Below, in pieces: positions 25,143 to 30,516 of a stretch of DNA of 64,000 bases (its first letter is position 1; each line of letters starts with the position of its first letter). Position numbers and translations under genes: made by a program. The stretch covers positions 1 through 64,000 of the forward strand of contig NZ_AAOU01000028.1 of NCBI RefSeq assembly GCF_000153325.1, given 5' to 3'. Under the pieces are notes generated by a model. That model had not been told where the DNA came from and ran no database searches. It saw nothing but the letters and a program-made list of their open reading frames with translations. The stretch is from Photobacterium sp. SKA34 (lineage in GTDB: Bacteria; Pseudomonadota; Gammaproteobacteria; Enterobacterales; Vibrionaceae).

Positions 25143-25171
25143 TTGACAGTACGTTAATTAATCAGTAAACA
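25143..25171 (+). promoter_or_regulatory. Candidate promoter of argCBGH(A)
   Basis: A perfect TTGACA at 25143-25148 and TAAACA at 25166-25171 are separated by 17 bp. The start would be near 25178, giving a leader of about 280 nt before argC, which includes the Arg-rich leader peptide. Confidence 0.6.
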
Positions 25172-25204
25172 TATAAATGCAACGTAAACGAATATTTTAT
25201 TGTT
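25166..25204. promoter_or_regulatory. Candidate tandem ARG boxes (ArgR operator)
   Basis: Two 18-bp units with a 3-bp spacer, the spacing of E. coli arg operators, cover the -10 region. Unit 1 (25166-25183) has core AACAT-ATAA-ATGCA against TGAAT-WWWW-ATTCA. Unit 2 (25187-25204) has a good left half CGAAT and a poor right half. Match is partial, position is good. Confidence 0.4.
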
Positions 25205-25267
25205 TTATTTAGCCGTAACCTGAGCAAGGAATGCCGGGTCTCCATTGTTAATTTAGGATGTTTTAAC

Positions 25268-25312
25268 ATGAACCAAGCGAAGCTTTTTACTCATACCTTC
25301 CGACGACGCTAA
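25268..25312 (+). CDS. Putative arginine leader peptide upstream of argC
   Basis: A 14-codon frame reads MNQAKLFTHTFRRR then TAA. An AGGA ribosome-binding site lies nine bases before the ATG. The last three sense codons are CGA CGA CGC, all read by the same inosine-containing Arg tRNA, so the ribosome would pause here when charged Arg-tRNA is short. The frame starts about 90 nt after the predicted transcription start and ends about 150 nt before argC. This is the layout of amino-acid attenuator leader peptides. A 14-codon frame can arise by chance, but the Arg triplet, the ribosome-binding site and the position before an arginine operon together make coincidence unlikely. Confidence 0.7.
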   Translation: MNQAKLFTHTFRRR

Positions 25313-25328
25313 GTCATATTCGCTTGGT
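25272..25328 (+). promoter_or_regulatory. Stem-loop enclosing the Arg codons, candidate attenuator
   Basis: ACCAAGCGAA at 25272-25281 pairs perfectly with TTCGCTTGGT at 25319-25328; the 37-nt loop contains the three Arg codons. The 3' arm overlaps the 5' arm of a second small hairpin (25326-25330 with 25335-25339), which is followed by CCTCTTATTT, so the two folds are mutually exclusive. The second hairpin has only five pairs and a weak U tract, so it is a poor intrinsic terminator; Rho or translation-level control is also possible. Confidence 0.55.
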
Positions 25329-25460
25329 GCGTATGCGCCCCTCTTATTTGCTGTTTTCAGCACTCCTTGTTACACGTTACTGCTGCGAAAATATAAAGAC
25401 TAAAGCCAGATTTGCGCCTAAACGGTAACAACAATCATTAGACTAAAAATGGAATTTGTA

Positions 25461-26474
25461 ATGTTAAAGACTCTAATTATCGGTGCAAGTGGCTATACCG
25501 GCGCAGAACTTGCGAAAATGGTGGTTAAGCATCCTCATTTAGAACTTGCGGGTTTATTTGTTTCTGAAAATAGCCTTGATGCAGGTAAACAGCTAAGTGA
25601 TTTACATGGTCAATTGAAAGGCATTGTTGATTTACCGTTACAACCTTTAATCAGTCCAACTGATATAGCTAAAGATGCTGACGTTGTTTTACTTGCCACG
25701 GCTCACCAAGTCAGCCATGACCTTGCTGTCAGTTTTCTTAATCAAGGGTGTCAGGTTTTTGATTTATCCGGTGCCTTTCGTGTGAAAGGTGATGATTTCT
25801 ATACCCAGTATTATGGTTTTGAACACCAGTATTCAGATTGGCTTGAACAAGCGGTTTATGGTTTAGCTGAATGGAATCATGATCTAATTGCTAACGCACA
25901 ATTAATTGCTGTTCCAGGCTGTTACCCAACAGCTTCACAATTAGCGCTTAAACCATTAATTGAAGCGGGTTTACTCGATACCGAGCAGTGGCCAGTGATT
26001 AATGCGGTCAGTGGTGTGTCTGGCGCTGGTAGAAAAGCGACCATGACTAATAGTTTCTGCGAAGTAAGCCTCCAAGCTTACGGTTTATTTTCCCACCGTC
26101 ATCAGCCTGAAATCAGTACTCACCTAGGCCGAGACGTTATTTTTACCCCGCATCTCGGCAACTTTAAACGCGGGATTCTTGCAACGATTACAGCGAAATT
26201 AGCTGACGGCACTACATTAGATCAGGTAACAGAAGCCTTTACTCTTGCTTATGCATCTTCATCAGATACACATGCGGTACGACTGTTAGGAACACAAGCG
26301 GCACGTCTACAGAATGTGGTGGGTAATTGTTTCTGTGATATTGGCTGGCATGTGGATGGTCAACATATCATTTTAACATCAGCGATTGATAACCTTTTGA
26401 AAGGGGCTTCTTCGCAAGCGATGCAGTGCATAAATATTCGAAATGGTTTCCCGCAATTAACAGCTTTAGCGTAG
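25461..26474 (+). CDS. argC: N-acetyl-gamma-glutamyl-phosphate reductase
   Basis: ArgC reduces N-acetylglutamyl phosphate to the semialdehyde, the third step of arginine synthesis. The ATG at 25461 gives 337 residues starting [17 protein letters not shown], aligned with E. coli. An upstream ATG at 25449 overlaps the likely TGGA ribosome-binding site. The NADP loop GASGYTGAE, the catalytic cysteine in [14 protein letters not shown] (near residue 154) and [11 protein letters not shown] are present. It is the first enzyme gene of argC-argB-argG-argH(A). Confidence 0.97.
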
Positions 26475-26481
26475 GAGTTCG

Positions 26482-27264
26482 ATGATGAGTCAGGGTCCAT
26501 TGGTCATCAAATTAGGTGGTGCAGTACTTTCATGCACAGAAACCTTAGAAAAGTTATTTTCGGCGATTAATCATTATCAAGCTAATTCGCAGCGCCCATT
26601 AATGTTAGTGCACGGTGGAGGGTATTTGGTTGATGACTTAATGGCAAAACTGCAACTACCGATAGTGAAAAAACAAGGTTTACGCGTAACGCCTAGTGAT
26701 CAAATTGCTCTTATTGCTGGTGCATTAGCAGGGACTGCGAACAAATTACTTCAAGGGCAGGCGATTAAGTCTGGCGTAAAGGCTGTAGGACTCAGTCTGG
26801 CTGATGGCGGTTTGTGTGAAGTTTCACAATTAGATCCAGAATTAGGCTCAGTGGGTAACGCTAAGCCGGGTAATGGCACTTTCATCACACAAACAATGGC
26901 GGCAGGTTATATGCCTATCATTAGCTCAATAGGTTTAGACGGGCAGGGCGAGTTGATGAATGTCAATGCCGACCAAGCCGCTGTTGCTGTTGCCGCCGCC
27001 GTTGATGGTGAATTGGTATTACTCTCTGATGTGAGTGGTGTATTAGATGGTAAAGGGCAGTTAGTTGAAGCGTTAACAGAAGCCGAGGCTGAATCGTTAA
27101 TTGAACAAGCGGTGATCACCGATGGCATGATTGTCAAAGTACGCGCAGCATTTGATGCCGCAAAAGCGCTAGGCCGTCCTATTGAAGTGGCGAGTTGGCG
27201 TTCCCCTGAAAAATTAACAGCACTATTTGATGGCGAAAGCATCGGTACCAAATTTACGTTGTAA
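26482..27264 (+). CDS. argB: Acetylglutamate kinase
   Basis: ArgB phosphorylates N-acetylglutamate. The 260-residue protein shows the amino-acid-kinase glycine motif VIKLGGAVL at the N-terminus, [15 protein letters not shown], and [15 protein letters not shown] near the ATP site. Length matches E. coli (258). It starts 7 bp after the argC stop. Two consecutive ATGs exist; an AGGAG ribosome-binding site fits the second (26485) slightly better, but E. coli ArgB also starts MM. Confidence 0.97.
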
Positions 27265-27337
27265 TTGAATTTAAGTTAACAATATTTAGCACATCGCCTG
27301 AACGGAATAACCGCAAGGCTGATAAGGAGAACAGCAT

Positions 27338-28546
27338 ATGAGCAAGATTAATAAAGTTGTATTAGCCTATTCTGGCGGTTTAGATACATCGGCTATCATT
27401 CCATGGTTGAAAGAAAACTATGATTGTGAAGTTGTCGCATTCGTAGCTGATGTGGGTCAAGGCGAAGAAGAGCTGGTTGGTATTGAAGAAAAAGCATTGG
27501 CTTCAGGAGCTTCATCTTGTTACATCGCCGATCTTAAAGAAGAGATGGTGAAAGATTATATCTACCCATCCTTAAAAACCGGTGCTGTGTACGAAGGTAA
27601 ATACCTACTGGGTACTTCAATGGCGCGTCCAATTATTGCTAAAGCACAAGTTGAATGTGCATTGGAATTTGGTGCAGATGCGTTATGTCATGGATGTACT
27701 GGTAAAGGTAACGATCAGGTACGTTTTGAAGGTGCATTTGCCGCACTAGCACCACAGCTTAAAGTAATTGCTCCTTGGCGTGAATGGGATCTACGTAGTC
27801 GTGAAGCGCTATTAGATTACCTTGCTGAGCGTGATATTCCATGTACGGCATCGCTTGAAAAAATTTACTCTCGTGATGCGAATGCATGGCACGTATCAAC
27901 AGAAGGTGGGGTGTTAGAAGATACATGGAATGCACCCAACGATTTATGTTGGGTATGGACAAAAGATCCAGAACAAGCGCCGGATCAAGCGGAAACAGTC
28001 ACGCTACTGATTGAACAAGGTGAAGTCGTTGCGGTTGATGGTGAAGCGATGACGCCATACAACGTGCTAACGTACCTGAATGAAAAAGGTATCGATCACG
28101 GTGTTGGTCGTATCGATATTGTAGAAAACCGTCTAGTCGGTATGAAGTCTCGTGGTTGTTATGAAACACCCGGAGGGACGATTATGATGGAAGCGCTACG
28201 TGCGGTAGAGCAGCTAGTACTCGATAAAGAATCGTTCGATTTCCGTCAAACATTGGGTCTTAAAGCGTCACACCTTATCTATGATGGTCGTTGGTTCACG
28301 CCATTATGTCAGTCATTAATTGCAGCTGCTGATGAGTTAGCAAAAGATGTGAGTGGTGAAGTGGTCGTTAAGCTGTACAAAGGTCAAGCAACCGTGACTC
28401 AGAAGCGCTCAACTAACAGCTTATATTCTGAAGAGTTTGCGACCTTTGGTGAAGATGATGTTTATGATCACAGCCATGCTGGCGGTTTCATTCGTCTTTA
28501 CTCACTAGCAAGTCGTATTCGTGCTTTAAATAGCCAAAAGAAATAA
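27338..28546 (+). CDS. argG: Argininosuccinate synthase
   Basis: ArgG condenses citrulline and aspartate with ATP. The 402-residue protein begins with the N-type ATP pyrophosphatase loop [18 protein letters not shown] and has [13 protein letters not shown] and [20 protein letters not shown]. It is of the type-I bacterial length (about 400), shorter than the 447-residue E. coli protein. It lies 73 bp after argB, with an AAGGAG ribosome-binding site. Confidence 0.97.
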
Positions 28547-28558
28547 CAAAAACAATCA

Positions 28559-28581
28559 CGGGGCTCCCTACTTAAGCCCCG
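28559..28581 (+). promoter_or_regulatory. Intercistronic hairpin between argG and argH(A)
   Basis: A perfect 7-bp GC-rich stem (CGGGGCT with AGCCCCG) has a nine-base loop, followed only by GTTTGAT. Without a real U tract it is more likely an mRNA-stabilising or processing element, or a weak attenuator, than a full terminator. Confidence 0.5.
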
Positions 28582-28638
28582 TTTGATCACGCCATAGCAA
28601 GATAAGCAAGTCGATACGTAGAGCAAAGGAGAAGTACC

Positions 28639-30516
28639 ATGGCATTATGGGGCGGACGTTTTAGTCAGGCAGCTGACACACGGTTTAAACAATTCAATGA
28701 TTCACTGCGTTTTGACTATCGTCTAGCAGAGCAAGATATTGTTGGCTCAATCGCATGGTCTAAAGCCCTACGTCAGGTTGATGTATTAACTGAGCAAGAG
28801 CAGCAAAAGCTTGAGTTAGCATTGAATGAGTTAAAGCTTGCTGTGATGGAAGATCCTGAGCAAATTTTACGTTCAGATTCTGAAGATATTCATAGTTGGG
28901 TAGAACAACAGTTGATCGCTAAAGTCGGTGATCTTGGTAAAAAGCTTCATACTGGACGCTCACGTAATGATCAGGTAGCGACCGATTTAAAATTATGGTG
29001 TCGTCAGCAAGGTCAGCAATTGCTATTAATGCTTGATCGCTTTCAACAGCAGTTAGTGACAGTCGCACGTGATCATCAAGCCACGGTTCTTCCGGGTTAT
29101 ACCCACCTTCAACGTGCGCAACCCGTGACATTTGCCCATTGGTGCTTAGCCTATGTCGAAATGTTTGAGCGTGATTATTCTCGTTTAACCGATGCGCTCG
29201 ATCGTTTAGATACCTGTCCTTTAGGCTCTGGCGCACTAGCTGGTACTGCCTATCCGATTGACCGTGAAGTCTTGGCTCATAGCTTAGGTTTCCACCGTGC
29301 AACGCGTAATAGTTTAGATTCAGTATCTGATCGCGATCATGTGATGGAACTTCTTTCTACTGCTTCTATTTCTATGCTTCATCTATCACGTATGGCAGAA
29401 GATTTGATCTTCTACAACTCAGGTGAATCTAACTTTATTGAGCTAGCAGATACAGTGACATCAGGATCATCTTTGATGCCACAAAAGAAAAACCCAGATG
29501 CATTAGAACTTATTCGTGGTAAATGTGGTCGTGTTTATGGCGCGATGACTGGCATGATGATGACAGTGAAGGCGTTGCCGCTTGCGTATAACAAAGATAT
29601 GCAAGAAGACAAAGAAGGCTTGTTTGATGCACTCGATAGCTGGCATGACTGTATGGAAATGGCGGCGCTTTGTTTTGACGGTATTCAGGTTAATAAAGAC
29701 CGTACCTTAGAAGCTGCAATGCAAGGTTATTCGAATGCGACAGAGCTTGCTGACTATTTAGTGGCGAAAGGCATTCCATTCCGTGAAGCGCACCATATTG
29801 TCGGTGTTGCTGTGGTTGCTGCAATTGCCAAAGGTTGCGCATTAGAAGAGTTATCTCTTGAGGAGATGAAGCAATTTTCTGAAGTGATTGATGATGACGT
29901 GTATCCAATTCTGACTATTGAATCGTGTTTAGATAAACGTTGTGCACTGGGTGGCGTTGCGCCAAATCAAGTCGATTATGCGATTGGTCAAGTAGAGAAG
30001 CGGTTAGAAAAACGTTACTCACCAAGCGTGAAGGTTCGTGGTGCTCGTTTAACGGATCTTGATGCGATTGAAGGTATGGTCGTGTACTGGGCGGGGCTTG
30101 GTGAAAACCTACCACGTAATCGAAATGAATTAGTCCGTGATATTGGCTCATTTGCAGTTGCGGAGCATCATGGTGTCGTGACAGGTTGTGCGTCGTTATA
30201 TGTTTATGATTCAGGGCTTGCGGAAATTCGCTCTTTAGGTGTTGAAGCAGGTTGGCAGCAACAAGGACAAGGTAAAGTAATTGTTGAGCACTTGCTTGAA
30301 AAAGCCGAACAAATGGCAATTAAGAAAGTCTTTGTATTAACACGTGTCCCAGAGTTCTTTATGAAGCGTGGCTTTATCCCTACATCGAAATCATTATTAC
30401 CAGAAAAGGTAATGAAAGATTGCGATCGTTGTCCGCGTCAACATGCATGTGATGAAGTCGCGCTTGAAGTTCGATTGGATCAAGAGCAGCGAATTCCGAC
30501 GGTTAATGTTGCCTAA
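28639..30516 (+). CDS. argH: Argininosuccinate lyase fused to N-acetylglutamate synthase-type GNAT domain, ArgH(A)
   Basis: Residues 1 to about 460 are a complete argininosuccinate lyase, with [13 protein letters not shown] at 104-116 and the superfamily signature [12 protein letters not shown] at 276-287. From about 466 to 590 there is a GNAT acetyltransferase domain with the acetyl-CoA loop GWQQQGQGK at 539-547, followed by a cysteine motif [10 protein letters not shown] like that ending classical N-acetylglutamate synthases. Total length is 625 against 457 for E. coli ArgH. This fusion, called ArgH(A), is known from Vibrio, Moritella and relatives, and lets one protein serve the first and last steps of arginine synthesis. 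Confidence 0.96.

Follow-up and report, generated by a model that had tools for sequence, protein, structure and literature searches.

Leaders of the his, leu, thr, trp and pheA type consist of a short ORF, rich in codons for the end product, that precedes a biosynthetic operon and in which the ribosome determines which of several exclusive RNA folds is formed; the arginine leader described here shares this plan, its ribosome-dependent folds being predicted. There are also theories on why leaders use codons read by particular isoacceptors. The fungal arginine attenuator peptide is likewise an arginine-responsive upstream ORF serving arginine synthesis, but it is eukaryotic and acts on translation, through stalling of the nascent peptide in arginine excess. 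The arginine T-boxes belong to Firmicutes, bind tRNA directly and have no leader peptide.

Arginine synthesis in Gammaproteobacteria is described as regulated via the repressor ArgR, and the sections of the ArgR regulon survey used here mention no arginine attenuator (PMC5343134). In the 2005 comparison the RNA control named for arginine genes is the T-box, with no gammaproteobacterial arginine attenuator mentioned in the part of it available (PMC1262725), and the same is true for the available part of a survey of cis-acting RNAs in Shewanella (PMC2659441). The words 'arginine' and 'argC' do not occur in the portion at hand of an attenuator survey (PMC2965389), nor do 'leader' and 'attenuat' in that of a paper on argH(A) (PMC1382215), a form of argH which, according to the same text, is known from marine Gammaproteobacteria. 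Overall, the open full-text literature searched, from which subscription journals fall largely outside, yielded no earlier report of an arginine attenuator in Gammaproteobacteria; within it arginine is not reported among the leaders of the his, leu, thr, trp and pheA type, and the original prediction likewise knew of no described Arg-codon attenuator for argC.

That prediction concerned a stretch of 64,000 nucleotides from Photobacterium sp. SKA34 (contig NZ_AAOU01000028.1, positions 1 to 64,000; below, the window) and placed a probable arginine leader peptide with an attenuator ahead of argCBGH(A). Our comparative analysis gives good support to a real, conserved arginine leader frame ahead of argC. 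We consider it likely that argCBGH(A) is controlled by a ribosome-mediated arginine attenuator, located in its 5' leader and working alongside ArgR.

MATERIALS AND METHODS

ArgC was found in 51 of 52 Photobacterium genomes, 156 of 159 genomes of the family, 138 of 158 of the order, 144 of 185 of the class, and in all genomes of two further families (11/11 and 41/41). Genomes G056 and G065, from genus g6 of the family, gave very weak ArgC matches only (1.7e-20 and 2.1e-12) and may be without the usual argC. A subset of the matches provided the argC upstream regions, of which 276 loci were scanned under one rule: an ATG ORF of 7–26 codons, at most 330 bases from argC and with no fewer than 30 bases between its end and argC. 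Every in-frame dicodon of qualifying ORFs was tallied, and mononucleotide shuffling of the upstream regions (20 rounds) served as control. Left out of the 276 were L031–L034 (named Photobacterium records assumed to be duplicates), L035, L036 and L042 (taken as counterparts of L065, L079 and L123), L043 (a distant MAG), L144–L147, L150, L173, L174, L177 and L178 (genome already represented), L204 and L205 (secondary ArgC-like matches) and the his leader L236.

In a looser terminator scan a hairpin was accepted if 5 or more of the 8 bases after it were T. The terminator and ARG-box scans sought ORFs slightly differently from the dicodon scan; locus L275 (f15) has a leader in the former only, a call that we take as chance. 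ARG boxes were scored with a general ARG-box consensus. Ribosome positions were modelled by Boltzmann folding with a masked footprint, placed according to general knowledge. H2 was judged by a hairpin search rather than by pair counts, because the MAFFT register for H2 is poor in alignment A2.

RESULTS

The leader region of the window

The frame, the AGGA, the 10-bp stem and the second hairpin are present base for base at the coordinates originally claimed (Table 1). The frame ends in CGA CGA CGC followed directly by TAA. All 10 pairs of the long stem are Watson–Crick, and positions 25326–25328 are common to this stem and H2, so that the two folds are mutually exclusive. The tail of H2 reads CCTCTTATTT. 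For argC, the ORF list starts at an in-frame ATG further upstream (25449). The argH of the window (28639–30516) is fused to an N-acetyltransferase domain (NCBIfam), and on the other side of the leader lies a long ORF divergent from the arg operon, presumably ppc.

Table 1. Features of the argC leader region and the arg operon in the window
Feature	Position	Strand	Basis or remark
Candidate arg operon promoter, TTGACA / 17-nt spacer / TAAACA	25143..25171	+	inspection
Tandem ARG-box-like sites, putative ArgR operator (25166-25183 and 25187-25204)	25166..25204	+	best tandem within 420 bases 5' of argC
AGGA ribosome-binding site of leader frame	25255..25258	+	nine bases 5' of ATG
Leader peptide frame MNQAKLFTHTFRRR, 14 codons	25268..25312	+	ATG 25268-25270, TAA 25310-25312
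CGA CGA CGC, proposed sensor codons; conserved core CGA CGA	25301..25309	+
Long stem, 5' arm (leader codons 2-5)	25272..25281	+	covariation
Long stem, 3' arm, shortly 3' of stop	25319..25328	+	covariation
Second hairpin H2, GGTGC-GTAT-GCGCC	25326..25339	+	excludes long stem; C/U-rich tail
Third hairpin H3, GCTG..CAGC	25349..25362	+	recurs in relatives
argC, first gene of argCBGH(A)	25461..26474	+	TIGR01850, 376 bits
argB, argG, argH-acetyltransferase fusion	26482..30516	+	NCBIfam

The consensus promoter scan has no entry for the candidate promoter, whose –10 element matches at 3 of 6 positions, and the ARG-box-like tandem scores 16.5 out of 26 against the ARG-box consensus, below the genus median of 20. 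Folding energy of the leader RNA alone is ordinary (z –0.47; 58 of 200 shuffles equally stable). Rfam gives two matches in this region of the window, both far below the cut-offs, no T-box match, and no match at gathering score among 13 relatives. Since single-sequence folding is unremarkable, the significance of the leader rests on its conservation across relatives.

Conservation of CGA CGA ahead of argC

An in-frame CGACGA within a short leader-like ORF occurs in 134 of the 276 argC upstream regions, compared with a mean of 1.25 and a maximum of 3 loci in shuffled regions. It reaches at least 50% of loci in 18 clades, the runner-up dicodon doing so in 6. Among the CGN-CGN dicodons CGACGA (134 loci) is followed by CGACGC (76), CGCCGA (16), CGACGT (15) and CGGCGA (4), the remaining eleven of 16 being found in 0 or 1 locus each. 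The second place of CGACGC (6 clades) is as one would expect, since in runs of CGA CGA CGC this pair comes straight after CGACGA. The codon after CGA CGA varies (CGC, GAC, stop, CAC, CAG and others); what is conserved is CGA CGA and not the run of three Arg codons originally described.

A CGACGA leader is present in all 51 Photobacterium loci; it also occurs in the majority of the other sampled genera of Vibrionaceae and in eight additional families of the order. Within the family it is found in 14 of 15 loci of g3 (which holds Enterovibrio), 2/2 of g7 (which holds Veronia), 5/5 of g9 and the single loci of g4, g5, g8 and g11. Counts for the further families are 10/11 (f2), 4/4 (f13), 4/4 (f16), 7/8 (f17), 8/9 (f6), 2/9 (f7), 1/2 (f11) and 22/31 (f25, composed of 9/9 in g47, 6/6 in g81, 6/12 in g37, 1/1 in g80 and 0/3 in g82). 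The leader is absent from all 49 loci of g12, which holds Vibrio, and from all 9 of g10, which we take to be Aliivibrio-like (58/58 combined). Conservation of the frame and its Arg run, which the original prediction proposed to test in Photobacterium and Vibrio, extends over Photobacterium and many other genera but fails in the Vibrio-like genomes. No CGACGA leader was found either in f10, f12, f19, f21, f27, f3, f15, f9, f5 and f26 (0/39 combined), in Xenorhabdus (0/4) or in other orders (0/20).

Negative loci also occur inside positive clades: L078 (g3), L198 (f2), L240 (f6), L152 (f11), L183 of f17, where the sequence is CGA CAA CGA, 6 of 12 loci in f25/g37, all 3 in f25/g82 and 7 of 9 in f7. 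L078, the sole g3 locus without a leader, comes from a smaller genome (G086; 3.6 Mb, 370 contigs) with a more divergent ArgC (64%). In L207, L190, L245, L246 and L247 CGACGA is present outside any ORF that fits the rule; the last four, all of f7, carry it 143–156 bases 5' of argC with no qualifying ATG ORF, and their frames may be longer or may start at a codon other than ATG.

At the DNA level the leader end of Photobacterium follows the pattern TYCGACGACGCTRA, which is matched in 49 of 52 genomes and once in the genome of the window, at the leader itself. In the three genomes without a match (L140, L061, L063) the leader is still present but contains a variant base. Extra matches in other genomes number 13, versus 31 for the reversed control pattern. 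A second genomic match, TTCGACGACGCTGA, lies away from argC in nine Photobacterium genomes (G012, G021, G023, G024, G028, G029, G034, G044 and G045) and is perhaps one conserved gene. In a close relative (L007, G021:C3:209187-210194) the argC frame has one internal TAG, either a broken gene or a sequencing error.

Codon choice, peptide and translation signals

Taken over 40 long ORFs in the window, CGA makes up 114 of 815 Arg codons (14%), and the CGACGA pair occurs once in 16,116 codons. CGA is read by the inosine-anticodon arginine tRNA. Leader peptides share little except RR, as MNQAMINNQDSLRRR, MDKFSTPLLQRRRRR, MFCHLICNRRRISA, MNRFSWFRRDSI and MNQYISQMKYTLNRRR illustrate. In Photobacterium the leader is mostly 14–16 codons long and keeps its start and its C-terminal Arg run. 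An SD-like motif precedes 44 of 51 Photobacterium leaders and 85 of 135 leaders overall; it is absent from those of f2, f13, f17, g7, g9 and f25/g37. Part of the published work on Salmonella shows that CGU, CGC and CGA are decoded by the same tRNAs, that CGA is read slowly in a his-leader assay, and that every CGA-containing Arg-Arg pair in the his leader causes strong de-attenuation (PMC4046918). Presumably the same tRNAs serve these three codons in Photobacterium.

RNA folds and their variation between lineages

For the long stem, 97.4% of cells are paired across 40 sequences of Photobacterium, g8 and g4, and 27 cells have changed on both sides. None of 500 shuffles reaches either this pairing or this number of double changes, and the values are far above those of slid controls. 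The 27 double-change cells are counted per sequence, not per event, and 25 of them are concentrated at two pairs (15 at one, 10 at the innermost); pair types are no more numerous than in shuffles (374/500). Clearest among the compensatory changes are CAA/TTG to CAG/CTG, GCG/CGC to GCA/TGC (L046) and GCG/CGC to ACG/CGT (L082). Own arms out-pair swapped arms in 17 of 19 cases, the exceptions being L023 and L140, and g5 (L083) builds a similar stem from different sequence.

The stem is no better than in shuffles in g3, g7, g11 and ten Photobacterium loci which we regard as a phosphoreum-like group (L018, L019, L028, L044, L048, L050, L051, L054, L057 and L058), and g9 gives an equivocal picture. 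Of the two stems whose conservation the original prediction proposed to test, the long one shows compensatory changes in most Photobacterium; the two stems are not universal. A single stem pair common to all leaders was considered and rejected on the same distribution. Invariable downstream pairing of the Arg codons was also considered and rejected (mean z 0.11 over 143 loci). In the consensus fold of the phosphoreum-like group the Arg codons and stop pair with a segment beyond H3, two hairpins being enclosed; in g3 and g7 their partner is instead the post-stop segment. An H2-like hairpin, with varied arms, is present in 62 of 64 distinct leaders (all except L088 and L098).

In family f17 (L182, L183, L257–L262) a terminator-like hairpin has the sensor codons as its 5' arm. 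In the free fold these codons pair with a downstream CGTCGG in 7 of 8 loci (not L183), and in most loci (not L260) the hairpin is followed by CTTTTCT, CTTTTCG, CTTTTTT or a longer T run. With the sensor codons masked, most loci are predicted to form an alternative hairpin into which the 3' arm is drawn. The hairpin is conserved; covariation was looked for in it and not found. The folding suggests that the f17 leader might work as a compact three-segment switch.

Termination signals

As an intrinsic terminator H2 looks poor. On average 3.0 of the 8 bases that follow are T, and 8 of 62 leaders have at least 6; U-rich tails follow H2 in part of Photobacterium. In the window the weak U-rich tract described originally is present (4 T in 8), without making H2 a good terminator. 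In contrast, the his attenuator of the same genome, used as control (L236, C4:361552-361687, MRIQMTNNHIHHHPD), has a GC-rich hairpin followed by TTTTTT, a strong U-tract terminator. Under the looser scan terminator-like hairpins were detected in 16 of 49 Photobacterium leaders, 3/14 of g3, 5/7 of f17, 6/9 of f2, 2/4 of f13, 2/8 of f6 and 1/2 of f7; none was found in f16 (0/4), f25 (0/18), g9 (0/4) or g7 (0/2).

RNA after H3 has a C content of 0.233 and a G content of 0.108, with more C than G in 75 of 82 loci, counted without dereplication. In the Vibrio/Aliivibrio control the stretch before argC has C and G both at 0.126 and C exceeds G in 27 of 53. A C-rich, G-poor RNA beyond the leader is suggestive of Rho, and only that.

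ARG boxes relative to the leader

Within 420 bases 5' of argC the best ARG-box-like tandem precedes the leader ATG in 47 of 51 Photobacterium loci (122 of 255 in shuffled Photobacterium sequence) and in all 25 loci of other leader-bearing Vibrionaceae genera. The median distance from the end of the tandem to argC is 234 bases in Photobacterium, 105 in Aliivibrio-like and 73 in Vibrio-like genomes. With ARG boxes so near argC, the latter two have scant space for a leader.

Predicted effect of ribosome position

In 37 Photobacterium leaders outside the phosphoreum-like group, the predicted probability of H2 is 0.16 in the free RNA, 0.16 with a ribosome paused at the first CGA and 0.81 with a ribosome at the stop; for the window the predicted values are 0.06, 0.06 and 0.95. 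By this masking, moving the ribosome by three codons would be enough to cover or expose the beginning of the 3' arm. The predicted sense is reversed in g3 (0.09 free, 0.78 paused, 0.43 at stop), and for the phosphoreum-like group the model predicts H2 in every state (0.97–0.98). Pause and stop are predicted to give different hairpins in all three f25/g47 loci and two of three f16 loci folded, and essentially one main hairpin in the folded loci of f2, f6 and f25/g37.

DISCUSSION

Four observations carry our reading of the locus: the leader frame, the conservation of its codons, the covariation of the long stem and the overlap of the two folds. On this anatomy and on the likeness to his and trp, attenuation by arginine tRNA charging seems the best explanation, and the original interpretation as an arginine-leader attenuator gains support from the kept frame and Arg run and from the compensatory changes. 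Translation of the leader, pausing, the direction of the switch and termination are what we infer from there. CGA CGA near the end of the 14-codon peptide would be the sensor, the ribosome pausing when charged CGA tRNA is scarce. A pause at CGA and a halt at the stop nine bases on would cover different post-stop nucleotides, and these would select either the long stem, which joins the start-codon region to the post-stop segment, or H2. With the ribosome paused, the 3' arm would be free, the long stem would form and block H2, and RNA polymerase would proceed into argC; with the ribosome at the stop, the first bases of the 3' arm would be covered, H2 would form and transcription would be attenuated, by weak intrinsic termination or with the aid of Rho or NusA. 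The direction, shortage giving ON, is taken from physiology. In Photobacterium the read-out may be a stem closing round the paused ribosome, and here the folding model points to the weakest point of this wiring, as such a stem would have few spare bases on each side.

The same sensor might be wired in the opposite way, a possibility we regard as doubtful yet deserving of attention. H2 would then be the ON structure and Rho would terminate before argC: the paused ribosome would block pairing between upstream and post-stop segments, H2 would form and the C-rich stretch would be hidden, whereas once the ribosome had left, the long stem (the Arg-codon hairpin in g3 and g7) would form and expose C-rich RNA to Rho. 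That most loci lack a U-tract after H2 would suit this, as would the C-rich, G-poor RNA after the leader, unlike the Vibrio/Aliivibrio control, and the predicted behaviour of H2 in g3; f17 follows the same logic, there with a U-tract, and in the available part of the work on Salmonella speF orf34 both Rho and Arg codons are involved (PMC6386406). However, the mask in non-phosphoreum Photobacterium gives H2 at the stop and not at CGA, part of Photobacterium has U-rich H2 tails, terminator-like hairpins exist in about a third of its leaders, and base composition is a suggestive sign of Rho only. Less probable still, and in our view unlikely, is that the leader acts after transcription, pausing altering argC translation or mRNA decay as happens partly for speF. 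The long 5' UTR, the recurrent hairpins and the want of a convincing terminator in many clades are what such control would lead one to expect, but in the window the argC ribosome-binding site lies ~100 nt past H2, and f17 has its terminator-like hairpin with a U-tract.

Much further down in probability stand two explanations that dispense with the sensing of codons. CGACGA could be kept as an RNA or DNA motif, a protein site or pairing element, which we hold to be very improbable: downstream pairing of the Arg codons does occur in f17, g3 and g7, and four f7 loci (L190, L245, L246, L247) hold CGACGA without an ATG ORF under our rule, but 134 loci have it in frame within a short ATG ORF and no pairing partner is common to all clades. 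The least credible of all is that the frame encodes a small trans-acting protein, the RNA structure being incidental. Across Photobacterium the start, the C-terminal Arg run and the length are indeed kept; across families, however, the peptide beyond RR is not conserved and the identity of the CGA codons is, for which a peptide would have no need, and this argues against such a protein.

Returning to the attenuator, we lean slightly towards a wider view in which it is ancestral to much of the order of Vibrionaceae. Selection would hold CGA CGA, and each lineage would have rebuilt the peptide and the RNA architecture around it: a start-codon stem in Photobacterium, a codon-containing hairpin in g3 and g7, a U-tract terminator with the sensor codons as 5' arm in f17. 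The leader would have been lost where ARG boxes lie near argC, as in Vibrio-like and Aliivibrio-like genomes.

Among the described systems, Salmonella speF orf34 comes close in that, by the part of the report at hand, two consecutive Arg codons in a short frame sense arginine and alter mRNA folds (PMC6386406). According to the same text it differs in controlling ornithine decarboxylase, in its length of 34 aa and its codons AGG CGG, in working with rare or frequent codons alike, and in that its expression requires translation (PMC6386406); in the window the next gene is argC and not ornithine decarboxylase. With arginine T-boxes, as far as the consulted part of the 2005 comparison goes, the arg leader shares control of arginine genes at the RNA level (PMC1262725). 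Unlike leaders of the his, leu, thr, trp and pheA type, that of Photobacterium has its sensor codons adjoining the stop, and in the window it has no proper U-tract terminator. The lineages offer different RNA architectures around one sensor, and because CGA CGA is chosen so strictly, theories of codon choice by isoacceptor in leaders can be tested on many natural variants. A conserved arginine leader would add to ArgR a sensor of tRNA charging, as in trp.
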